DNA of 64,000 nucleotides from Microbacterium sp. Marseille-Q6648 (GTDB taxonomy: Bacteria > Actinomycetota > Actinomycetes > Actinomycetales > Microbacteriaceae): positions 1,544,347 through 1,608,346 of the forward strand of contig NZ_CALPBZ010000001.1 in NCBI RefSeq assembly GCF_943181415.1. The letters are read 5' to 3'. The stretch's first letter is position 1. The number at the start of each line of letters is the position of its first letter. Under the pieces are notes generated by a model. It saw only the letters and a list, made by a program, of their open reading frames with translations, made no database searches and had not been told where the DNA came from. This document shows, in pieces, positions 31,210 to 37,637 of the stretch. Made by a program: the position numbers and the translations under genes.

Positions 31210-33990
31210 TTGTCCACCCTGCTGTACTCACTCGGACGCTGGGCGTACCACCGTCCGTGGCGCGTCCTGCTCGCCTGGCTGCTGCTGCTGGCCCTCGCCG
31301 GCGGCGGCGCCGCGGTGTTCATGAAGGGCACCGACAACTCCTTCTCGATCCCCGGCACCGAGGCGCAGGAGGGCATCCAGATGCTCGACCGCACCTTCCC
31401 CCAGGCCAGCGGCACGAGTGCGCAGCTCGTCGTCGTCGCCGCCGACGACGACCGGGTGGCGGACGAGCCGTACGCCGGCGCGATCGGCGACACGCTGCAG
31501 GACCTCGAGGACCTCGACGGCGTCCTGGCCGTGACCGATCCCTTCGACGAGATGGTGAGCGGCCTGGTCTCCGAGGACGACACCGCCGCGATCATCCGGC
31601 TGCAGTTCGACGGTCAGGCCACCGACATCTCGGACGAGACCAAGGCGACCCTCGAGGGCGTGGCCGACGACCTCCACTCGACCCTCCCCGCGGGGTCGCA
31701 GGCGGCCATGGGCGGAGACCTGTTCTCGACCTCCGTCCCCGCGCTGTCGCTGATCGAAGCGGTCGGCGTGCTCATCGCGCTGTTCGTGCTCATCGTGACC
31801 TTCCGCTCGATCGCCGGGGCGTGGTTCCCGCTCATCAGCGCCATCATCGGCGTCGGCCTGGCGATCGCGCTCATCTACGTCTCGACGGCCTTCGCCTCGA
31901 TCTCGTCGACCACCCCGATGCTCGCGATCATGCTGGGCCTGGCGGTCGGGATCGACTACGCCCTCTTCATCGTCGCCCGCCACCAGGATCAGGTCCGCGC
32001 GGGCATGGCCCCCGACGAATCCGCCGCGCGCGCGACGGGAACGGCGGGTTCGGCCGTCGTGTTCGCCGGCGTCACCGTGCTCATCGCCCTCATCGGACTG
32101 TCGTTCGCGAACATCCCCTTCCTCACCACCATGGGGATCGCCGCCGCGGTGGCCGTGGCGATCGCGGTCGTCGTCGCCCTCACGCTCACCCCCGCCCTCC
32201 TCGGCTTCGCGAAGGGCCGCGTCGCGGGCTGGCAGCCCCGCGCACGACGCGACCGGCCGGTGCGGACCCCCCGGCCCAACCGCTGGGTGATGCTCGTGAC
32301 GCGGCATCCGCTCATCACGACCGTCGCCGTCGTCGTCGGCCTCGGAATCGCGGCCGTCCCGGCCGCCAGCCTCACCCTCGCCCTGCCGAACGCGGGCGTG
32401 CAGCCCCCGTCGAGCCAGGCGCGTCAGGCCTACGACCTCACCGCGGAGCGCTTCGGTCCGGGCTCCAACGGACCGCTCATCCTGGCCGGGACGATCGTCA
32501 CCTCGACCGACCCGCTCGGCCTCATGGCCGATCTCGCCGACGAGATCGAGCAGATCCCCGGCGTGAAGGAGGTGGCGCTGTCCACCCCCAACGAGACCGC
32601 CGACACCGGCCTCATCCAGGTCGTCCCCGAGACCGCGCCCGACGATCCGGCCACCGCCGAGCTCGTGCGCGACCTCCGCGCACAGCACGACCGGCTGCTC
32701 GAGGAGTACGGCGTCGACCTGAAGGTCACCGGCTTCACCGCCGTCGGGATCGACATCTCCGACCGGCTCGGAGCAGCCCTCATCCCGTTCGGCATCTTCG
32801 TCGTCGGGCTCTCGCTCATCCTGCTGACGATCGTCTTCCGCTCCATCTGGGTGCCCCTGAAAGCCGCCGCCGGCTATCTGCTCTCGGTCGCCGCATCGTT
32901 CGGCGTGGTCGCCGCGGTGTTCGAGTGGGGCTGGTTCGCCGACGCCCTGCACGTCACCCGCACCGGCCCGGTCATCAGCTTCATGCCCATCATCCTCATG
33001 GGCGTCCTGTTCGGGCTCGCGATGGACTACGAGGTGTTCCTGGTCTCGCGGATGCGCGAGGACTACGTTCACGCCCGGCGGGCCCGGGGCGGCCGGGCCG
33101 ACCGCGCCACCGCGATCGCCGCCGTGCGGTCGGGCTTCACCGCCTCGGCCCGGGTCGTCACCGCCGCCGCCGTGATCATGTTCGCCGTCTTCGCCGCGTT
33201 CGTCCCCGAGGGCGACTCCTCGATCAAGCCGATCGCCCTGGGGCTCGCCGTCGGCATCGCCGTCGACGCCTTCGTCGTGCGGATGACCCTCGTGCCGGCC
33301 GTGATGGCCCTGCTGGGTGAGAAGGCGTGGTGGATGCCGCGCTGGCTCGACCGGGTCCTCCCCCACTTCGACATCGAGGGCGAAGCCGTCGAACGCGAGA
33401 TCGCGCTGCGGGACTGGCCGACGCCGGGCTCTATGTCGGCCATCGTCGCCGAGGACCTCGCCGTGACCGCCGACACCGGCCGCGGCGGGGCGGTGACGAT
33501 CTTCGACGGCGCCCGCACGAGCGTCGAGCCCGGCGGCACGCTGGTGGTGACGGGCGACGCGCGTGCGACGCGCGCCTTCGCGCTCGTCGTGGGCGGCCGG
33601 CTCGCCCCCGACGAGGGCCGGATCCGTGTGGCAGGGCACCTGCTGCCGGGTCGCGCCGCCTGGGTGCGCGGCCACGTCGGCCTGGCTCTGCTCGGCGACG
33701 CCGACGACCCCGTCCGCGAGATCCGCAGCGCGCTGGACGGCCGCCCGTCGCTCATCGTGATCGACGGCGTCGACGCGCTGGACGCTCCCCGCCGGGATCA
33801 GGCAGCCGCGCTCCTGCGCGACGCCTCGGCGCGCCTGGCCGCCACCGACGACACGCTCACGATCGTCGCGACCGCCCGCAGCGAGGGCGCGGCCCTCGCC
33901 CTCCTCGCCGAGGCGCACCGCCCCCGCATCGACGCACTCGCCCTGCGGGTGCACTCCGCTTCCTCCCCCGCCCCCGAGGTGAACGCATGA
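31210..33990 (+). CDS. MMPL family transporter with C-terminal degenerate ABC ATPase domain
   Basis: A 926-residue RND-type exporter of the MMPL family. Two sets of TM helices surround periplasmic loops; hallmark blocks are GLAVGIDYALFIVARHQDQVRAGM, LAMDYEVFLVSRMREDYVHARRA and LGLAVGIAVDAFVVRMTLVPAVMALLG. Past residue 745 the chain continues into an ABC-ATPase-like domain whose Walker A has decayed to TGDARATRAF (no GK[ST]) and which lacks an LSGGQ signature, although a Walker-B-like LIVIDGVD remains. The TTG start has GGAGG five bases upstream. The stop overlaps the YhgE start (ATGA). Likely controlled by the divergent TetR. Confidence 0.9.
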   Translation: MSTLLYSLGRWAYHRPWRVLLAWLLLLALAGGGAAVFMKGTDNSFSIPGTEAQEGIQMLDRTFPQASGTSAQLVVVAADDDRVADEPYAGAIGDTLQDLEDLDGVLAVTDPFDEMVSGLVSEDDTAAIIRLQFDGQATDISDETKATLEGVADDLHSTLPAGSQAAMGGDLFSTSVPALSLIEAVGVLIALFVLIVTFRSIAGAWFPLISAIIGVGLAIALIYVSTAFASISSTTPMLAIMLGLAVGIDYALFIVARHQDQVRAGMAPDESAARATGTAGSAVVFAGVTVLIALIGLSFANIPFLTTMGIAAAVAVAIAVVVALTLTPALLGFAKGRVAGWQPRARRDRPVRTPRPNRWVMLVTRHPLITTVAVVVGLGIAAVPAASLTLALPNAGVQPPSSQARQAYDLTAERFGPGSNGPLILAGTIVTSTDPLGLMADLADEIEQIPGVKEVALSTPNETADTGLIQVVPETAPDDPATAELVRDLRAQHDRLLEEYGVDLKVTGFTAVGIDISDRLGAALIPFGIFVVGLSLILLTIVFRSIWVPLKAAAGYLLSVAASFGVVAAVFEWGWFADALHVTRTGPVISFMPIILMGVLFGLAMDYEVFLVSRMREDYVHARRARGGRADRATAIAAVRSGFTASARVVTAAAVIMFAVFAAFVPEGDSSIKPIALGLAVGIAVDAFVVRMTLVPAVMALLGEKAWWMPRWLDRVLPHFDIEGEAVEREIALRDWPTPGSMSAIVAEDLAVTADTGRGGAVTIFDGARTSVEPGGTLVVTGDARATRAFALVVGGRLAPDEGRIRVAGHLLPGRAAWVRGHVGLALLGDADDPVREIRSALDGRPSLIVIDGVDALDAPRRDQAAALLRDASARLAATDDTLTIVATARSEGAALALLAEAHRPRIDALALRVHSASSPAPEVNA

Positions 33991-36200
33991 CCCTTCCCAT
34001 CGAACGCTCGCGCCCGCGCCGACCCGTCACGTGGCTCACCCTGGTCGGGATCGTGCTGCTGCCCGTCATCATCGGCGGCATCCTCATCGCCGCGCTCTAC
34101 AACCCCACCGAGCGCCTCGAGAACATCAGCGCCGCGATCGTGAACGAGGACGAGCCCGTCACGATCGGCGACCAGCTCGTGCCCCTCGGGCGTCAGCTGA
34201 CCGCAGGGCTGGTCGAGGGCTCGGACGAGCTCGACAGCAACCTCACGTGGACGATCTCGAACGCCGACGACGCTGCGGACGGCCTCGCCGAGGGCACCTA
34301 CAACGCCGTCATCACGATTCCGGCGGACTTCTCGGCCGCCGCGACCTCGACCCAGCCCGGGGGGACCCCCGAGAAGGCCGTCATCGACGTCACCACACCC
34401 CCCGACAGCCTGATCGTCGACGACGCCATCACCGCCCAGGTCGCGCAGGCTGCGGCATCCCTCATGGGCGACGAGCTGTCGAGCCTCTATCTCGAGAACG
34501 TTCTACTGGGCTTCACCACGCTCGGCGACCAGCTCGGCGACGCCGCCGACGGAGCGGGCGAGCTCGCCGACGGGACGAGCGAGGCCGCCGGCGGCACGGT
34601 GAGCCTCGCCGACGGCGTCGCGCAGCTCTCGGGAGGCGCCGACCAGCTCGCGGGCGGTGCCGGAGGCATCGCGTCGGGCGTGGGCGAACTCGCCGGCGGC
34701 GCACGGGAGCTCGCCGCGGGCGCGGACGGCATCGCCGGCGGCGCCGCCGAGATCGCCGAGGGTGCCGGGCAGCTCGCCGCCGGCACCGCGGCTGCTGCGG
34801 ACGGACTCGACACGTGGGCGGGTGGGGCCCGCGACATCGCCGCCGGTGGCGGCGAACTGGCCGGCGGCCTGACGCTCATGGCCGACGAGGTCTCGCAGCT
34901 GCCCGACGTGCCCGTGGAGGTCGTCGACGCCGCCGGCGCACTCGCTGCCGACAGCGAGCAGATCAGGACCGCGGTGACGGATGCCGCGGCGGAGCTCGCG
35001 GCGCTGTCGGCGGACTGTCTCGCCCAGGGCGGCTCGGCCGAGCTGTGCGCGACGCTCACCGACATCTCGGCGCGGGTCGACGACGCCCTCCCGACCGTCA
35101 CCGCCACCCTCGGGGACGCCGACACGATCGCCGCCGGTGTCGCCGACCTGGCCGAATTCGAGCCTCGCCTGGTGGCCGCGCTGCGCGAAGCCGCCGGTGG
35201 TGCGTCGGCGCTGGCGGGCGGGATGGACGAACTCGCCGACGGTGCCGCCGACGCCGCGGGCGGCCTGGACGAGCTCTCGGGCGGCATGTCCTCGCTCGCC
35301 AGCGGTGCCGATGAACTCGCCGGCGGCACCTCGACGTGGGCGTCGGGTGCGCGCACGTGGGCTGCGGGCGCCGATCAGGCCGCGAGCGGTGCGAGCACGT
35401 GGGCCGGCGGCGCCTCGACGTGGGCGACCGGAGCGACGGATGCCGCCGCCGGCGCCGACGACCTCGCCGACGGCCTCGGACTCATCGCCGACGGGACGGG
35501 CGAGCTGGCCGCGGGGCTGCAGACCGCGACCGACGAGATCCCCTCGTACAGCGATGCCGAAGCCGCCGAGCTCGCCGGGGTCGTGGCCGACCCGGTGTCG
35601 GCGCAGGGTGTCGGCTCGGAGCTGTTCGGCGCCTCGGCCGTTCCGCTGCTGACGACGCTCGCGCTGTGGTTCGGCGGACTCGGCAGCTTCGTCGCCCTGC
35701 AGGCCGTCACGCGGCGTTCTCTCGCGGCGCGGGCGTCGTCGCCGGTGCTCGCACTGCGGGCGCTCGCGCCTGCCGCCGGCCTGGGCGCGGTGCAGGGCCT
35801 GCTCGTCGCAGGCGTCGTGCAGCTCGCGGCATCCTACGATCCGGGAGCGTGGACGGTGTTCGCGCTGGTGTGCGTGGTGGCAGGAGTGGCCTTCGCGGCG
35901 GTGAACCAGGCGCTGGTGGCGGTCTTCGGCGGCGCGGGCCGCTGGGTGTCGGCCATGATCGGCGTGCTGGCGGTCGCCACGGGCGTGGTCTCGACCGTGC
36001 CGGGCGCCCTGTCCGCCGTGGCCGCGCTCGTGCCGACCTCGCCCGCGTACAACGGCATGGTCGCCGCGCTGACGTCTGCGGACGGCGTCGCGGCCGGGCT
36101 CGTCGGACTCACCGTGTGGGCGCTGCTCGCGCTCGCCGCGACCGTGGTGGCCGTCACCCGCCGCCGCACCGTCACCGCCCGGTCGCTCCTCGCCGTCTGA
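33987..36200 (+). CDS. YhgE/Pip family membrane protein
   Basis: A 737-residue protein with one N-terminal TM helix (residues 14-36), a very long extracytoplasmic region and about five C-terminal TM helices. The middle (residues 185-510) is a run of short Ala/Gly/Asp/Leu repeats of the form ADGAGELADG and GGADQLAGG, interrupted by a helical segment containing two Cys, as usual for YhgE/Pip proteins. Members are linked to type VII secretion, phage infection or surface assembly. It is co-transcribed with the MMPL gene. Confidence 0.9.
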   Translation: MTLPIERSRPRRPVTWLTLVGIVLLPVIIGGILIAALYNPTERLENISAAIVNEDEPVTIGDQLVPLGRQLTAGLVEGSDELDSNLTWTISNADDAADGLAEGTYNAVITIPADFSAAATSTQPGGTPEKAVIDVTTPPDSLIVDDAITAQVAQAAASLMGDELSSLYLENVLLGFTTLGDQLGDAADGAGELADGTSEAAGGTVSLADGVAQLSGGADQLAGGAGGIASGVGELAGGARELAAGADGIAGGAAEIAEGAGQLAAGTAAAADGLDTWAGGARDIAAGGGELAGGLTLMADEVSQLPDVPVEVVDAAGALAADSEQIRTAVTDAAAELAALSADCLAQGGSAELCATLTDISARVDDALPTVTATLGDADTIAAGVADLAEFEPRLVAALREAAGGASALAGGMDELADGAADAAGGLDELSGGMSSLASGADELAGGTSTWASGARTWAAGADQAASGASTWAGGASTWATGATDAAAGADDLADGLGLIADGTGELAAGLQTATDEIPSYSDAEAAELAGVVADPVSAQGVGSELFGASAVPLLTTLALWFGGLGSFVALQAVTRRSLAARASSPVLALRALAPAAGLGAVQGLLVAGVVQLAASYDPGAWTVFALVCVVAGVAFAAVNQALVAVFGGAGRWVSAMIGVLAVATGVVSTVPGALSAVAALVPTSPAYNGMVAALTSADGVAAGLVGLTVWALLALAATVVAVTRRRTVTARSLLAV

Positions 36201-36225
36201 CCTCCCTAGCCCGTCGCCCACGCAT

Positions 36226-36369
36226 CGTCCAGATCACGTGATCTCGCCGAGCGCACACGTCACGCGCGGGCGTGACGGGTGCACTCGGTCACATCACGTG
36301 ATCTCGCCGAGCGCACACGTCACGCGCGGGCGTGACGGGTGCACTCGGTCACATCACGTGATCTGGACG
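36226..36369. repeat. Interrupted palindrome carrying two identical 60-bp units
   Basis: Terminal 17-bp inverted repeats CGTCCAGATCACGTGAT (36226-36242) and ATCACGTGATCTGGACG (36353-36369) enclose two exact 60-bp direct repeats (36241-36300, 36301-36360). Each unit ends in ATCACGTG and has an internal hairpin CGTCACGC-GCGG-GCGTGACG inside a longer imperfect stem. Removing both units would restore a perfect 24-bp palindrome, which would suit a bidirectional terminator between the convergent YhgE and 51-residue genes. It resembles a REP/MITE-like insertion with 8-bp target duplication; that is inference. Confidence 0.85.
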
Positions 36370-36379
36370 GGAGTTGAGG

Positions 36380-36535
36380 TCACCTGGGGTCGGGTTCGGC
36401 GTCGGATCCGGGGGCGGGGTTCGTCCCGGCCTCGGCGGCGTCCTCGCGGACCTCGTCGGTGAGCGCGTCGGTGGGCGGGCCGTCGTCGGGGCGCGCGTCG
36501 TCGGAATGACGGGAGTGGGGCGTGGTGTCGCTCAT
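36380..36535 (-). CDS. Small acidic hypothetical protein
   Basis: A 51-residue, strongly acidic, Asp/Pro-rich protein (SDDARPDDGPPTDALTDEVRED...) predicted to be disordered. The ATG at 36535 is chosen because AAAGGAG lies five bases upstream. The promoter region contains TGTCAACCCCG (36597-36587 on the coding strand) and a weak -10 AAGAGT 27 bases after TGTCAAC, a layout repeated at 56279. Function unknown. Confidence 0.65.
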   Translation of the reverse strand: MSDTTPHSRHSDDARPDDGPPTDALTDEVREDAAEAGTNPAPGSDAEPDPR

Positions 36536-36563
36536 GGGAGCTCCTTTCGACACCGCCACTCTT

Positions 36564-36597
36564 CCGGCGACCGGCCCTCCCGCCAACGGGGTTGACA
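36564..36597 (-). promoter_or_regulatory. TGTCAACCCCG element with downstream -10
   Basis: TGTCAACCCCG (36597-36587, minus strand) is followed, 27 bases after TGTCAAC, by the -10-like hexamer AAGAGT. An 11-base identical element with the same spacing precedes the membrane protein gene at 56120. The spacing is too long for a plain -35, so this may be an activator site. Confidence 0.45.
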
Positions 36598-36602
36598 GCG
36601 CG

Positions 36603-37637
36603 TCAGCTGAGCCCGGAGTAGGCGTGCAGGCCCTTGAAGAACATGTTCACGATCGTGAAGTTGAACAGGACCGCGGTGAACCCGATGATCGACAGCCACG
36701 CCGAACGCGCGCCGCGCCAGCCGCGTGTCGCGCGCGCGTGGATGTACCCGGCGTACAGCACCCAGATGACGAAGGTCCAGACTTCCTTGGTGTCGAAGCC
36801 CCAGTAGCGGCCCCAGGCGTCGTTGGCCCAGATGGACCCGGCGATGAGGGTGAAGGTCCAGAAGATGAAGCCGATGATCGCGAAGCGGTACGCCAGCGAC
36901 TCGAGGGCGTCGGCGTCCGGCAGGGTGCGCAGGAAGCGCGGCCCGGTCGAGGTGCGCCCGGTCGGCGTGGGGTCGGATGCCGCTTCAGCGAGCATCCGGC
37001 GCTCACGGCGCGCCTGCATCAACTGAAGCACGGAAAGCCCGAACGCCAGCGCGAACAGCGCCGTGGCGAGCGAGGCGACGAAGACGTGGATGACCAGCCA
37101 CACGCTCTTGAGCGGATCGGCGAGCGGCACCACCTCGACGTAGAACCCCAGCGTCGCGCCGCCGAGGAGCAGCACCGTCAGGCCGGTGATGAAGGAGCCG
37201 AGGAAGCGCAGGTCGGAGCGGAAGAGCACCGCCAGGTAGACCGCGACGATGAGCATCGTGCCGGTGAGGGCGAACTCGTACATGTTCGACCACGGCACGC
37301 GCTCGGCGGCGATGCCGCGGGTGACGTCGCCGGCCACGTGGAAGCCGAAGCCCAGCACCGTCAGCGCGGTGCCGATGCGCGCCCACACCAGTCGCGGGCG
37401 GTCGTCGCGCGGCGAGGTGGTCCCGACGCCGGCGTCGCGCCCGCCCGCCGCAGCGGATGAGCCCACCGTCGCGCCGACGAGCTCGCGCTCGCGGACCACC
37501 CGCTGGTCGGCTGCGACGGCACCCCGACGGGCGAGGTCGACGGCGTACGCGACGAACGCGAGCGCGTAGATCGCGATCGCCGTCCACACGAGCAGCACCG
37601 ACACGGTGTCGAGGGTCATCGGAGCGGTTTCGGGCAT
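36603..37637 (-). CDS. ccsB: Cytochrome c biogenesis protein CcsB/ResC
   Basis: A 344-residue integral membrane protein of cytochrome c maturation system II, which with ResB carries heme to the outside and joins it to apocytochrome c. The heme-handling WWD-type block reads GSIWANDAWGRYWGFDTKEVW, with flanking His residues and about eight TM helices. The ATG is six bases after TAAACT, which overlaps the resB stop, so it may have its own promoter within the operon. Confidence 0.94.
   Translation of the reverse strand: MPETAPMTLDTVSVLLVWTAIAIYALAFVAYAVDLARRGAVAADQRVVRERELVGATVGSSAAAGGRDAGVGTTSPRDDRPRLVWARIGTALTVLGFGFHVAGDVTRGIAAERVPWSNMYEFALTGTMLIVAVYLAVLFRSDLRFLGSFITGLTVLLLGGATLGFYVEVVPLADPLKSVWLVIHVFVASLATALFALAFGLSVLQLMQARRERRMLAEAASDPTPTGRTSTGPRFLRTLPDADALESLAYRFAIIGFIFWTFTLIAGSIWANDAWGRYWGFDTKEVWTFVIWVLYAGYIHARATRGWRGARSAWLSIIGFTAVLFNFTIVNMFFKGLHAYSGLS

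Follow-up and report, generated by a model that had tools for sequence, protein, structure and literature searches.

A probable REP-like repeat family in Microbacterium and its candidate AbiEi-like/DUF559-like partner protein

A palindromic element between two convergent genes of Microbacterium sp. Marseille-Q6648 is, on balance, a two-unit copy of a dispersed REP/REPIN-like repeat with a dedicated protein other than a RAYT, one that putatively recognises a sequence word, cuts at it and leaves it to repair to spread the repeat. REP elements are common, and to our knowledge the dedicated enzymes known for them are the RAYTs and their close kin. Neither these repeats nor their pairing with such a gene is described in the open-licence literature among the matches listed. 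Positions below are those of the window, the whole 64,000-nucleotide stretch of DNA that was analysed, unless a locus or contig is named.

Results

The window element is a tandem pair of units

The left outer end of the element is a 17-bp inverted repeat (CGTCCAGATCACGTGAT; 36226..36242, + strand) and its right end the reverse complement of CGTCCAGATCACGTGAT (36353..36369, − strand), both read directly from the sequence. Two identical 60-bp units, each with an imperfect stem, follow one another at 36238..36297 and 36298..36357 (both + strand), as established by Tandem Repeats Finder, folding and direct reading; Tandem Repeats Finder delimits the array as 36233-36364, with a period of 60, 2.2 copies and 100% matches. 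Three palindromic boxes that centre around ATCACGTGAT match the word CAGATCACGTGATCTG with one mismatch at 36230..36245, with two at 36290..36305, where the box is common to both units, and with one at 36350..36365. When up to three mismatches are allowed this word occurs four times in the window, three of them at the element, against an expectation of 0.32. The whole of 36226-36369 forms a dyad that is 83% complementary, and folding gives −109.1 kcal/mol for the 144-nt element (z −10.8 against shuffles) and −38.6 for a single unit (z −5.9 against shuffles). The initial annotation had described identical 60-bp units with matching palindromic boxes between convergent genes, an 8-mer copied at each junction and a 24-bp palindrome that deletion of 120 bp would leave behind. 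Direct reading of the sequence bore out this structure, with ATCACGTG as the 8-mer at 36233, 36293 and 36353, and CGTCCAGATCACGTGATCTGGACG as the palindrome that would remain. The two-unit repeat number at 36226-36369 may be an assembly error; a tandem pair is also found elsewhere, in Microbacterium sp. 5K110 (L076), with 57 of 60 bases identical between its units.

The upstream gene (33987..36200, + strand; start from the codon-usage gene finder), which we take to be YhgE-like following the initial annotation, has its stop at 36200 and is followed by the element after 25 bp. Imperfect 21-bp tandem repeats within this gene, at 34544-34784, are probably a repetitive coding stretch. From the other side a small ORF of 51 aa (36380..36535, − strand), regarded as a gene by position only, converges on the element, its stop at 36380 lying 10 bp beyond it. 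The gene at 36603..37619 (− strand), presumably CcsB-like, was used to locate the corresponding junctions in relatives. All gene calls were made with an in-house codon-usage finder trained on the window.

The initial annotation went on to propose that a small non-autonomous element had inserted into an ideal bidirectional terminator and had then been duplicated. A dispersed non-coding element with a tandemly duplicated unit is retained from this proposal; an intrinsic terminator is not supported, as there is no T run at the element and there are 0 terminator-like sites in 35900-36700. Insertion into a terminator is likewise unsupported, because the 24-bp palindrome belongs to the element itself, being formed by its two end boxes, and is present at other copies. 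The junction was compared across the 30 ccsB loci, this genome's included, that matched best in a set of 99 genomes; a YhgE-like match lay within the fetched stretch at 19 of the 29 others, one of which was cut by a contig end. Using the box with up to three mismatches, the lone 24-bp palindrome was not found at the 29 other ccsB loci of the genus, the sole box match there being one 3-mismatch site in L186, and a terminator broken by insertion was rejected both on this ground and for want of a T run. The covariance model described below gave a strong match at this genome's locus only, the best of the other loci reaching E 0.0015 and 23 bits, and several of the other junctions are short and plain while others carry hairpins of different types. 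The presence of the element at the junction therefore varies between species. The presence/absence pattern expected by the initial annotation was thus recovered in part: the element is absent from the 29 other loci, and no exact empty site was seen because the intergenic sequence at these loci is too divergent to give a clean junction.

Two further observations concern these junctions. At L181 and L184, downstream of ccsB, a different repeated hairpin (CACCTGTCGCGA ... GTGACAGGTGAGC) occupies the corresponding position. At L201 (2598-3500, −), L203 (970-1338, +), L206 (2742-3509, −) and L207 (395-1288, +), DUF559-type genes and GTCCAAGACACGCC-type hairpins lie side by side downstream of ccsB; these form a second group of nuclease-like genes adjoining palindromes, in other genomes of the genus.

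The unit belongs to a dispersed family of dyad elements

Blastn against the same genome (3.49 Mb, 8 contigs) found many further sites for the window's unit, and the stronger matches are 73-84% identical to it, so that there is no sign of recent transposition. The 16-mer box with up to three mismatches occurs 45 times in the genome (reversed control, 0), clustered at spacings of 42, 51-53 or 60 bp. Where the spacing is 60 bp the intervening sequence is an imperfect stem that contains CCGAG-nnCACnCG together with the inverse of this motif, giving a unit of about 84 bp with the architecture box-stem-box. A covariance model, R1, was built from 22 units of this genome and a few others, leaving out, of the stretches returned by the strict pattern described below, L068, L069 and L073 (shorter spacing), L070 and L071 (other boxes) and L075 (the same as a G009 copy). 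In this genome 14 units pass E<1e-12 with R1, and the family lies on contigs C1, C5 and C6 with one short copy on C2. Across the genus, R1 matches (E≤0.01) were found in at least 82 of 149 genomes in a survey that scored at most 30 candidates in each genome, reported both strands and hence is neither complete nor a count of units. A strict pattern run against 84,980 species returned 10 stretches, every one titled Microbacterium.

The elements are extragenic for the most part. Of 89 units, 33 lie between convergent genes, 34 between tandem and 15 between divergent ones, 5 at a contig edge and 2 inside predicted genes; for comparison, 25% of the window's intergenic bases are convergent and 31% divergent. 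Where a unit adjoins a gene end (67 units), the stop codon is within 60 bp in 44 cases, a distance stated without a baseline. Blastn matches in G011 and G021 fall in sequence that looks coding and were not counted as copies. A known RNA family was also rejected: all 10 Rfam matches were to microRNA models, below gathering scores, and were taken as chance hairpin matches.

A partner gene is flanked by the repeat

The initial annotation had suggested a search for a partner transposase or RAYT gene. The RAYT is missing: the PF01797 search, which gives matches in 5 of 14 control genomes, gave 0 in this genome (G000). The genome does have a partner gene, though of a different kind. It encodes 329 aa and lies on the same contig, about 134 kb before the window (G000:C1:1409116-1410102). 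Pairs of elements 1.2-1.4 kb apart enclose the same kind of gene in this genome, G080, G077 and G059. G083 is a counter-case, in which similar elements 1.3 kb apart enclose other genes and the partner homolog is elsewhere.

Flanks were compared by aligning 500 bases from each side of the gene in both orientations, with flanks swapped between loci as the control. Within the genus the left and right flanks of the partner gene match (score ≥40) at 23 of 32 loci as against 82 of 992 swapped pairs, some of which have a common word because the species are related; the 32 loci were drawn from 33, L171 being omitted for its 139-base flank. In other genera the flanks match at the same score at 20 of 29 loci as against 10 of 812 swapped pairs, bringing the overall figure to 43 of 61 loci, whereas ordinary genes of the window gave 1 match in 52 and neighbours of the partner gene 0 in 63. 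Against the pairing, nine of the 32 genus loci and nine of the 29 loci of other genera are without matching flanks. The shared flank repeats are more stable as folds than their shuffled versions (z≤−3) at 18 of 23 genus loci and 16 of 20 loci of other genera, with medians of −5.2 and −5.5, and the copy behind the partner gene starts 7-196 bp after it (within 103 bp in 22 of 23 cases).

For dispersed units the similarity to partner-gene flanks is greater within a genome (mean score 65.6, n=56) than across genomes (mean 30.1, n=1050), and for 34 of the 56 units the best-scoring gene is that of the same genome, where 1.9 would be expected. The units in this comparison were top model hits, 79 of 89 being kept after 10 at the gene itself or duplicates had been dropped. 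The same-genome match reaches p<0.05 in 10 of 14 genomes and falls at p 0.0504 in G068; in the remaining three, G009, G016 and G006, the retrieved gene has flanks that show no match to the dispersed units. Five or more model hits were found in 21 of 27 genomes with a close homolog of the partner (E≤1e-75), in 10 of 36 with an intermediate one and in 2 of 35 with a distant one or none (close against distant, p 3e-9), a link to which relatedness contributes since the model was built from this lineage. G057 and G092, with many model hits and no partner homolog, count against the pairing.

Four paralogs of the partner are found in this genome by protein query, and five matches by profile. The flank repeat differs at each of the four, 0-1 of 62 swapped scores being equally high. 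It is clearly a dyad at the first two paralogs and moderately so at the third, the fourth (L150) being no better than background, and only at L148 does the common flank repeat fold with z≤−3 (L147, −1.8; L149, −0.7; L150, −0.8). Dispersal was assessed for the flank repeats of the first two paralogs. Among the 40 of 70 candidates scored, the repeat of the second has at least 63 matches, which lie on C2, C3 and C6, with one short match on C7; C5 and C1, the latter making up 46% of the genome, have none. The contigs that carry the two families are thus largely different, a split for which local spreading around the parent gene, or a domain structure of the chromosome, could account. The second family includes a tandem array with a 50-bp period at G000:C2:584310-584526 (starts at 584310, 584360, 584410 and 584460). 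Repeats of the third paralog, in L149 (G000 C3) around 1047-1318 and 2600-2690, contain GGCATCC/GGATGCC, a 7-mer present 71 times on both strands of the window where base composition predicts 15.1, other 7-mers being over-represented too.

Within the genus, 78 of 99 genomes have a partner homolog; across the taxonomic family, Microbacteriaceae, homologs were found in 112 of 150 genomes and 66 of 85 genera. The homologs at G079:C22:25546, G055:C1:1184981 and G080:C1:376229 have an in-frame stop and are possibly decaying copies. G297 has three copies (L240, L241 and L242), one of them on a 60-kb contig; they sit in a block whose copies, 7.3 kb long or more, are 99.97-100% identical, and since they are part of this larger duplicated block they provide no evidence that the gene moves as a unit. 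A plasmid or phage origin was considered and rejected: the plasmid search gave no match for the element and none for the partner protein, viral contigs had no match for the element pattern, and the peptide patterns of the partner matched 175 viral stretches, none of them by tblastn; a single weak phage match had 32.9% identity.

The partner combines an AbiEi-like and a nuclease-like part

Residues ~11-170 of the partner match the AbiEi models of PADLOC in 23 of 23 members (best 2.7e-18) and Pfam AbiEi_4 in 10 of 23 (best 5.6e-6), with P0001 itself at only 0.071. The C-terminal part is invariant at E218, D250, E261-x-D263-G264, K267-Y268, E286-K287 and R289, which we take to be the look of a DUF559-type PD-(D/E)XK nuclease; DUF559 (REase_MTES_1575) we assume to belong to the Vsr-like endonuclease superfamily. 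Using hhalign, the partner profile matches a second gene set, A4, with a probability of 98.9, over both the AbiEi-like and the C-terminal parts. The A4 genes are those that adjoin GTCCAAGACACGCC-type hairpins downstream of ccsB in other genomes, and as two of the three scanned pass the DUF559 cut-off, the link to DUF559 runs indirectly through A4. The members of the partner alignment (A3) had no direct DUF559 match in Pfam and no nuclease family among the 8 Pfam families listed for them, two partner members had no NCBIfam match, and no solved structure was matched by the partner sequence. We read the partner as an AbiEi-like winged-helix part joined to a DUF559/restriction-endonuclease-like part, with putative nuclease activity. 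None of the 8 predicted neighbours of the four paralogs is an AbiEii-like gene; they comprise L10, an oxidoreductase, GNAT, PTS/PRD, CNNM, IMPDH, PFK and peptidase S9.

The repeat-gene-repeat architecture, which recurs in many genera, could also belong to a transposon-like unit in which the protein is a true transposase, the gene with its two flanking repeats being the mobile unit and the dispersed hairpins its MITE-like remnants. Small copies without a gene and tandem doublets would suit such a unit; however, the analysis turned up no clean-ended unit in several copies and the Pfam lists for the partner hold no transposase family, and we regard this explanation as very improbable.

The dyad is kept as a genome-level sequence word

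Other genomes of the genus mostly keep the architecture and the linking CTCGCCGAG, but their box varies: its word is ATCATGTGCTC in G080 and G083, ACGCACGT in G043, AACCACCCC in G121 and TGCACGG in G044, G092 and G158. The word is mostly common to the copies of one genome. When arms were exchanged between units of the same genome, pairing remained at 0.745 of positions (0.749 for the real arms), whereas exchange between genomes reduced it to 0.653, or to 0.682 if orientation was chosen freely (53 units, 8 genomes). In the window's word family the columns covary no more than their make-up predicts (85.9% paired, 85.4% when shuffled), and sliding the partner arm drops pairing to 25-44%. The dyad is kept as a genome-level sequence word, and the results of arm exchange and covariation fit a trans-acting reader of the word better than selection on single RNA stems.

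These results bear on two further explanations. Were the elements to act as RNA, as bidirectional terminators or stabilisers of mRNA 3' ends, with the link to a nuclease-like gene only secondary, their strong hairpins and the orientation of their neighbours, convergent more often and divergent less often than in the window's intergenic sequence, would be accounted for. This we consider improbable: the T run is lacking, covariation beyond sequence conservation is not seen, only one of the 30 ccsB loci, that of this genome, has a strong model match, and the match to the flanks of one particular gene would be left unexplained. The second explanation, unlikely though less so, is that the repeats are operator arrays only, with which an AbiEi-like regulator controls its own gene, and that the dispersed copies are immobile sites of a regulon or of chromosome organisation. 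According to the available text of PMC7319586, AbiEi binds two 23-bp inverted repeats in its promoter and Rv2827c binds four; the boxes here are often 42, 51-53 or 60 bp apart, and a dyad that acts as a sequence word rather than a covarying stem would be in keeping with binding of this kind. Operators would not account for the copy that also lies behind the gene, for the position of dispersed copies near stop codons or for the nuclease-like part of the protein.

Discussion

The reading that we prefer is that of a dispersed repeat served by a dedicated protein. It is likely that the protein recognises the sequence word, which each element would offer as inverted half-sites to be bound by the AbiEi-like part. 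Cutting at the element and mobilisation are less certain. The nuclease-like part would cut the DNA at the element or close to it, and elements would then spread and become homogenised within a genome as the break is repaired, or the sequence converted, from another copy; cutting and copy-directed repair of this kind would explain the spread, the uniform word throughout a genome and the tandem doubling. Doubling, as in the window, may arise incidentally, either through slippage or in the course of cutting and repair. Lying mostly behind stop codons, the elements would be tolerated there and may affect mRNA 3' ends.

More tentatively, and as a proposal on which we would not yet lean, the arrangement may be a second, independent kind of REP across the taxonomic family. 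Each AbiEi-like/DUF559-like gene would drive its own palindromes by cutting and copy-directed repair, not by HUH transposition, and protein and repeat would change together so that each lineage or paralog has its own word. If true, the repeat-plus-partner arrangement would have arisen more than once, and dozens of natural protein-word pairs would be available for direct tests of binding specificity and repeat spread.

Several known systems share features with the element and its partner. Like MITEs, the element is small, carries no gene and has dyad ends; the Pfam families listed for the partner include no transposase. It differs from an intrinsic terminator, in which a hairpin is followed by a T run, since the window element is without one. 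The partner resembles proteins of the AbiE type IV toxin-antitoxin systems (AbiEi of S. agalactiae, Rv2827c of M. tuberculosis) in its AbiEi-like N-terminal part and in the inverted repeats upstream of its gene. In contrast to AbiE, no gene for an AbiEii (nucleotidyltransferase-like) toxin stands beside the four paralogs of this genome, the protein has an additional DUF559-like C-terminal part, and the repeats are also found downstream and dispersed. To the DUF559 (REase_MTES_1575) proteins it is possibly related, through the conserved E, D, E-x-D-G and R positions and the hhalign match to the set with DUF559 matches; among the matches listed from the open-licence literature, genes of this type paired with hairpin repeats are not reported.

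The CGTC-tagged REPs described in PMC3733652 are likewise palindromic and extragenic, and the element here starts with CGTC as they do. In those REPs an unpaired CGTC precedes a stem of 8-9 bp and a CCA tail (PMC3733652), whereas here CGTC pairs with GACG. In its available text, that paper names five phyla for the CGTC-tagged REPs, Actinobacteria not being among them, and reports that no dedicated transposase was found; the word Actinobacteria is absent from this text, which does mention untagged REP-like sequences of M. tuberculosis.

The closest parallel is with REP/REPIN elements and RAYTs. As presented in the available text of PMC3733652, PMC8266576 and PMC3116915, REPs are short extragenic palindromes of genome-specific types, often in inverted pairs or clusters, and in REPtrons a dedicated gene is flanked by its own repeats, with several gene-repeat pairs in a genome. 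The RAYT is an HUH tyrosine enzyme; the partner here is AbiEi-like and DUF559-like in a genome without PF01797. There is no GTAG, which REPs carry at the foot of the palindrome, in the consensus of the 22 units, and the unit of about 84 bp, a stem framed by two boxes, departs from REPs and REPINs in its build. The element nevertheless resembles them in being an extragenic palindrome with a genome-specific word, in its clusters and in the presence of several gene-repeat pairs, and, as with REPs and RAYTs, a gene is flanked by its own type of repeat while further repeats are dispersed between genes, only 2 of 89 units lying inside predicted ones.
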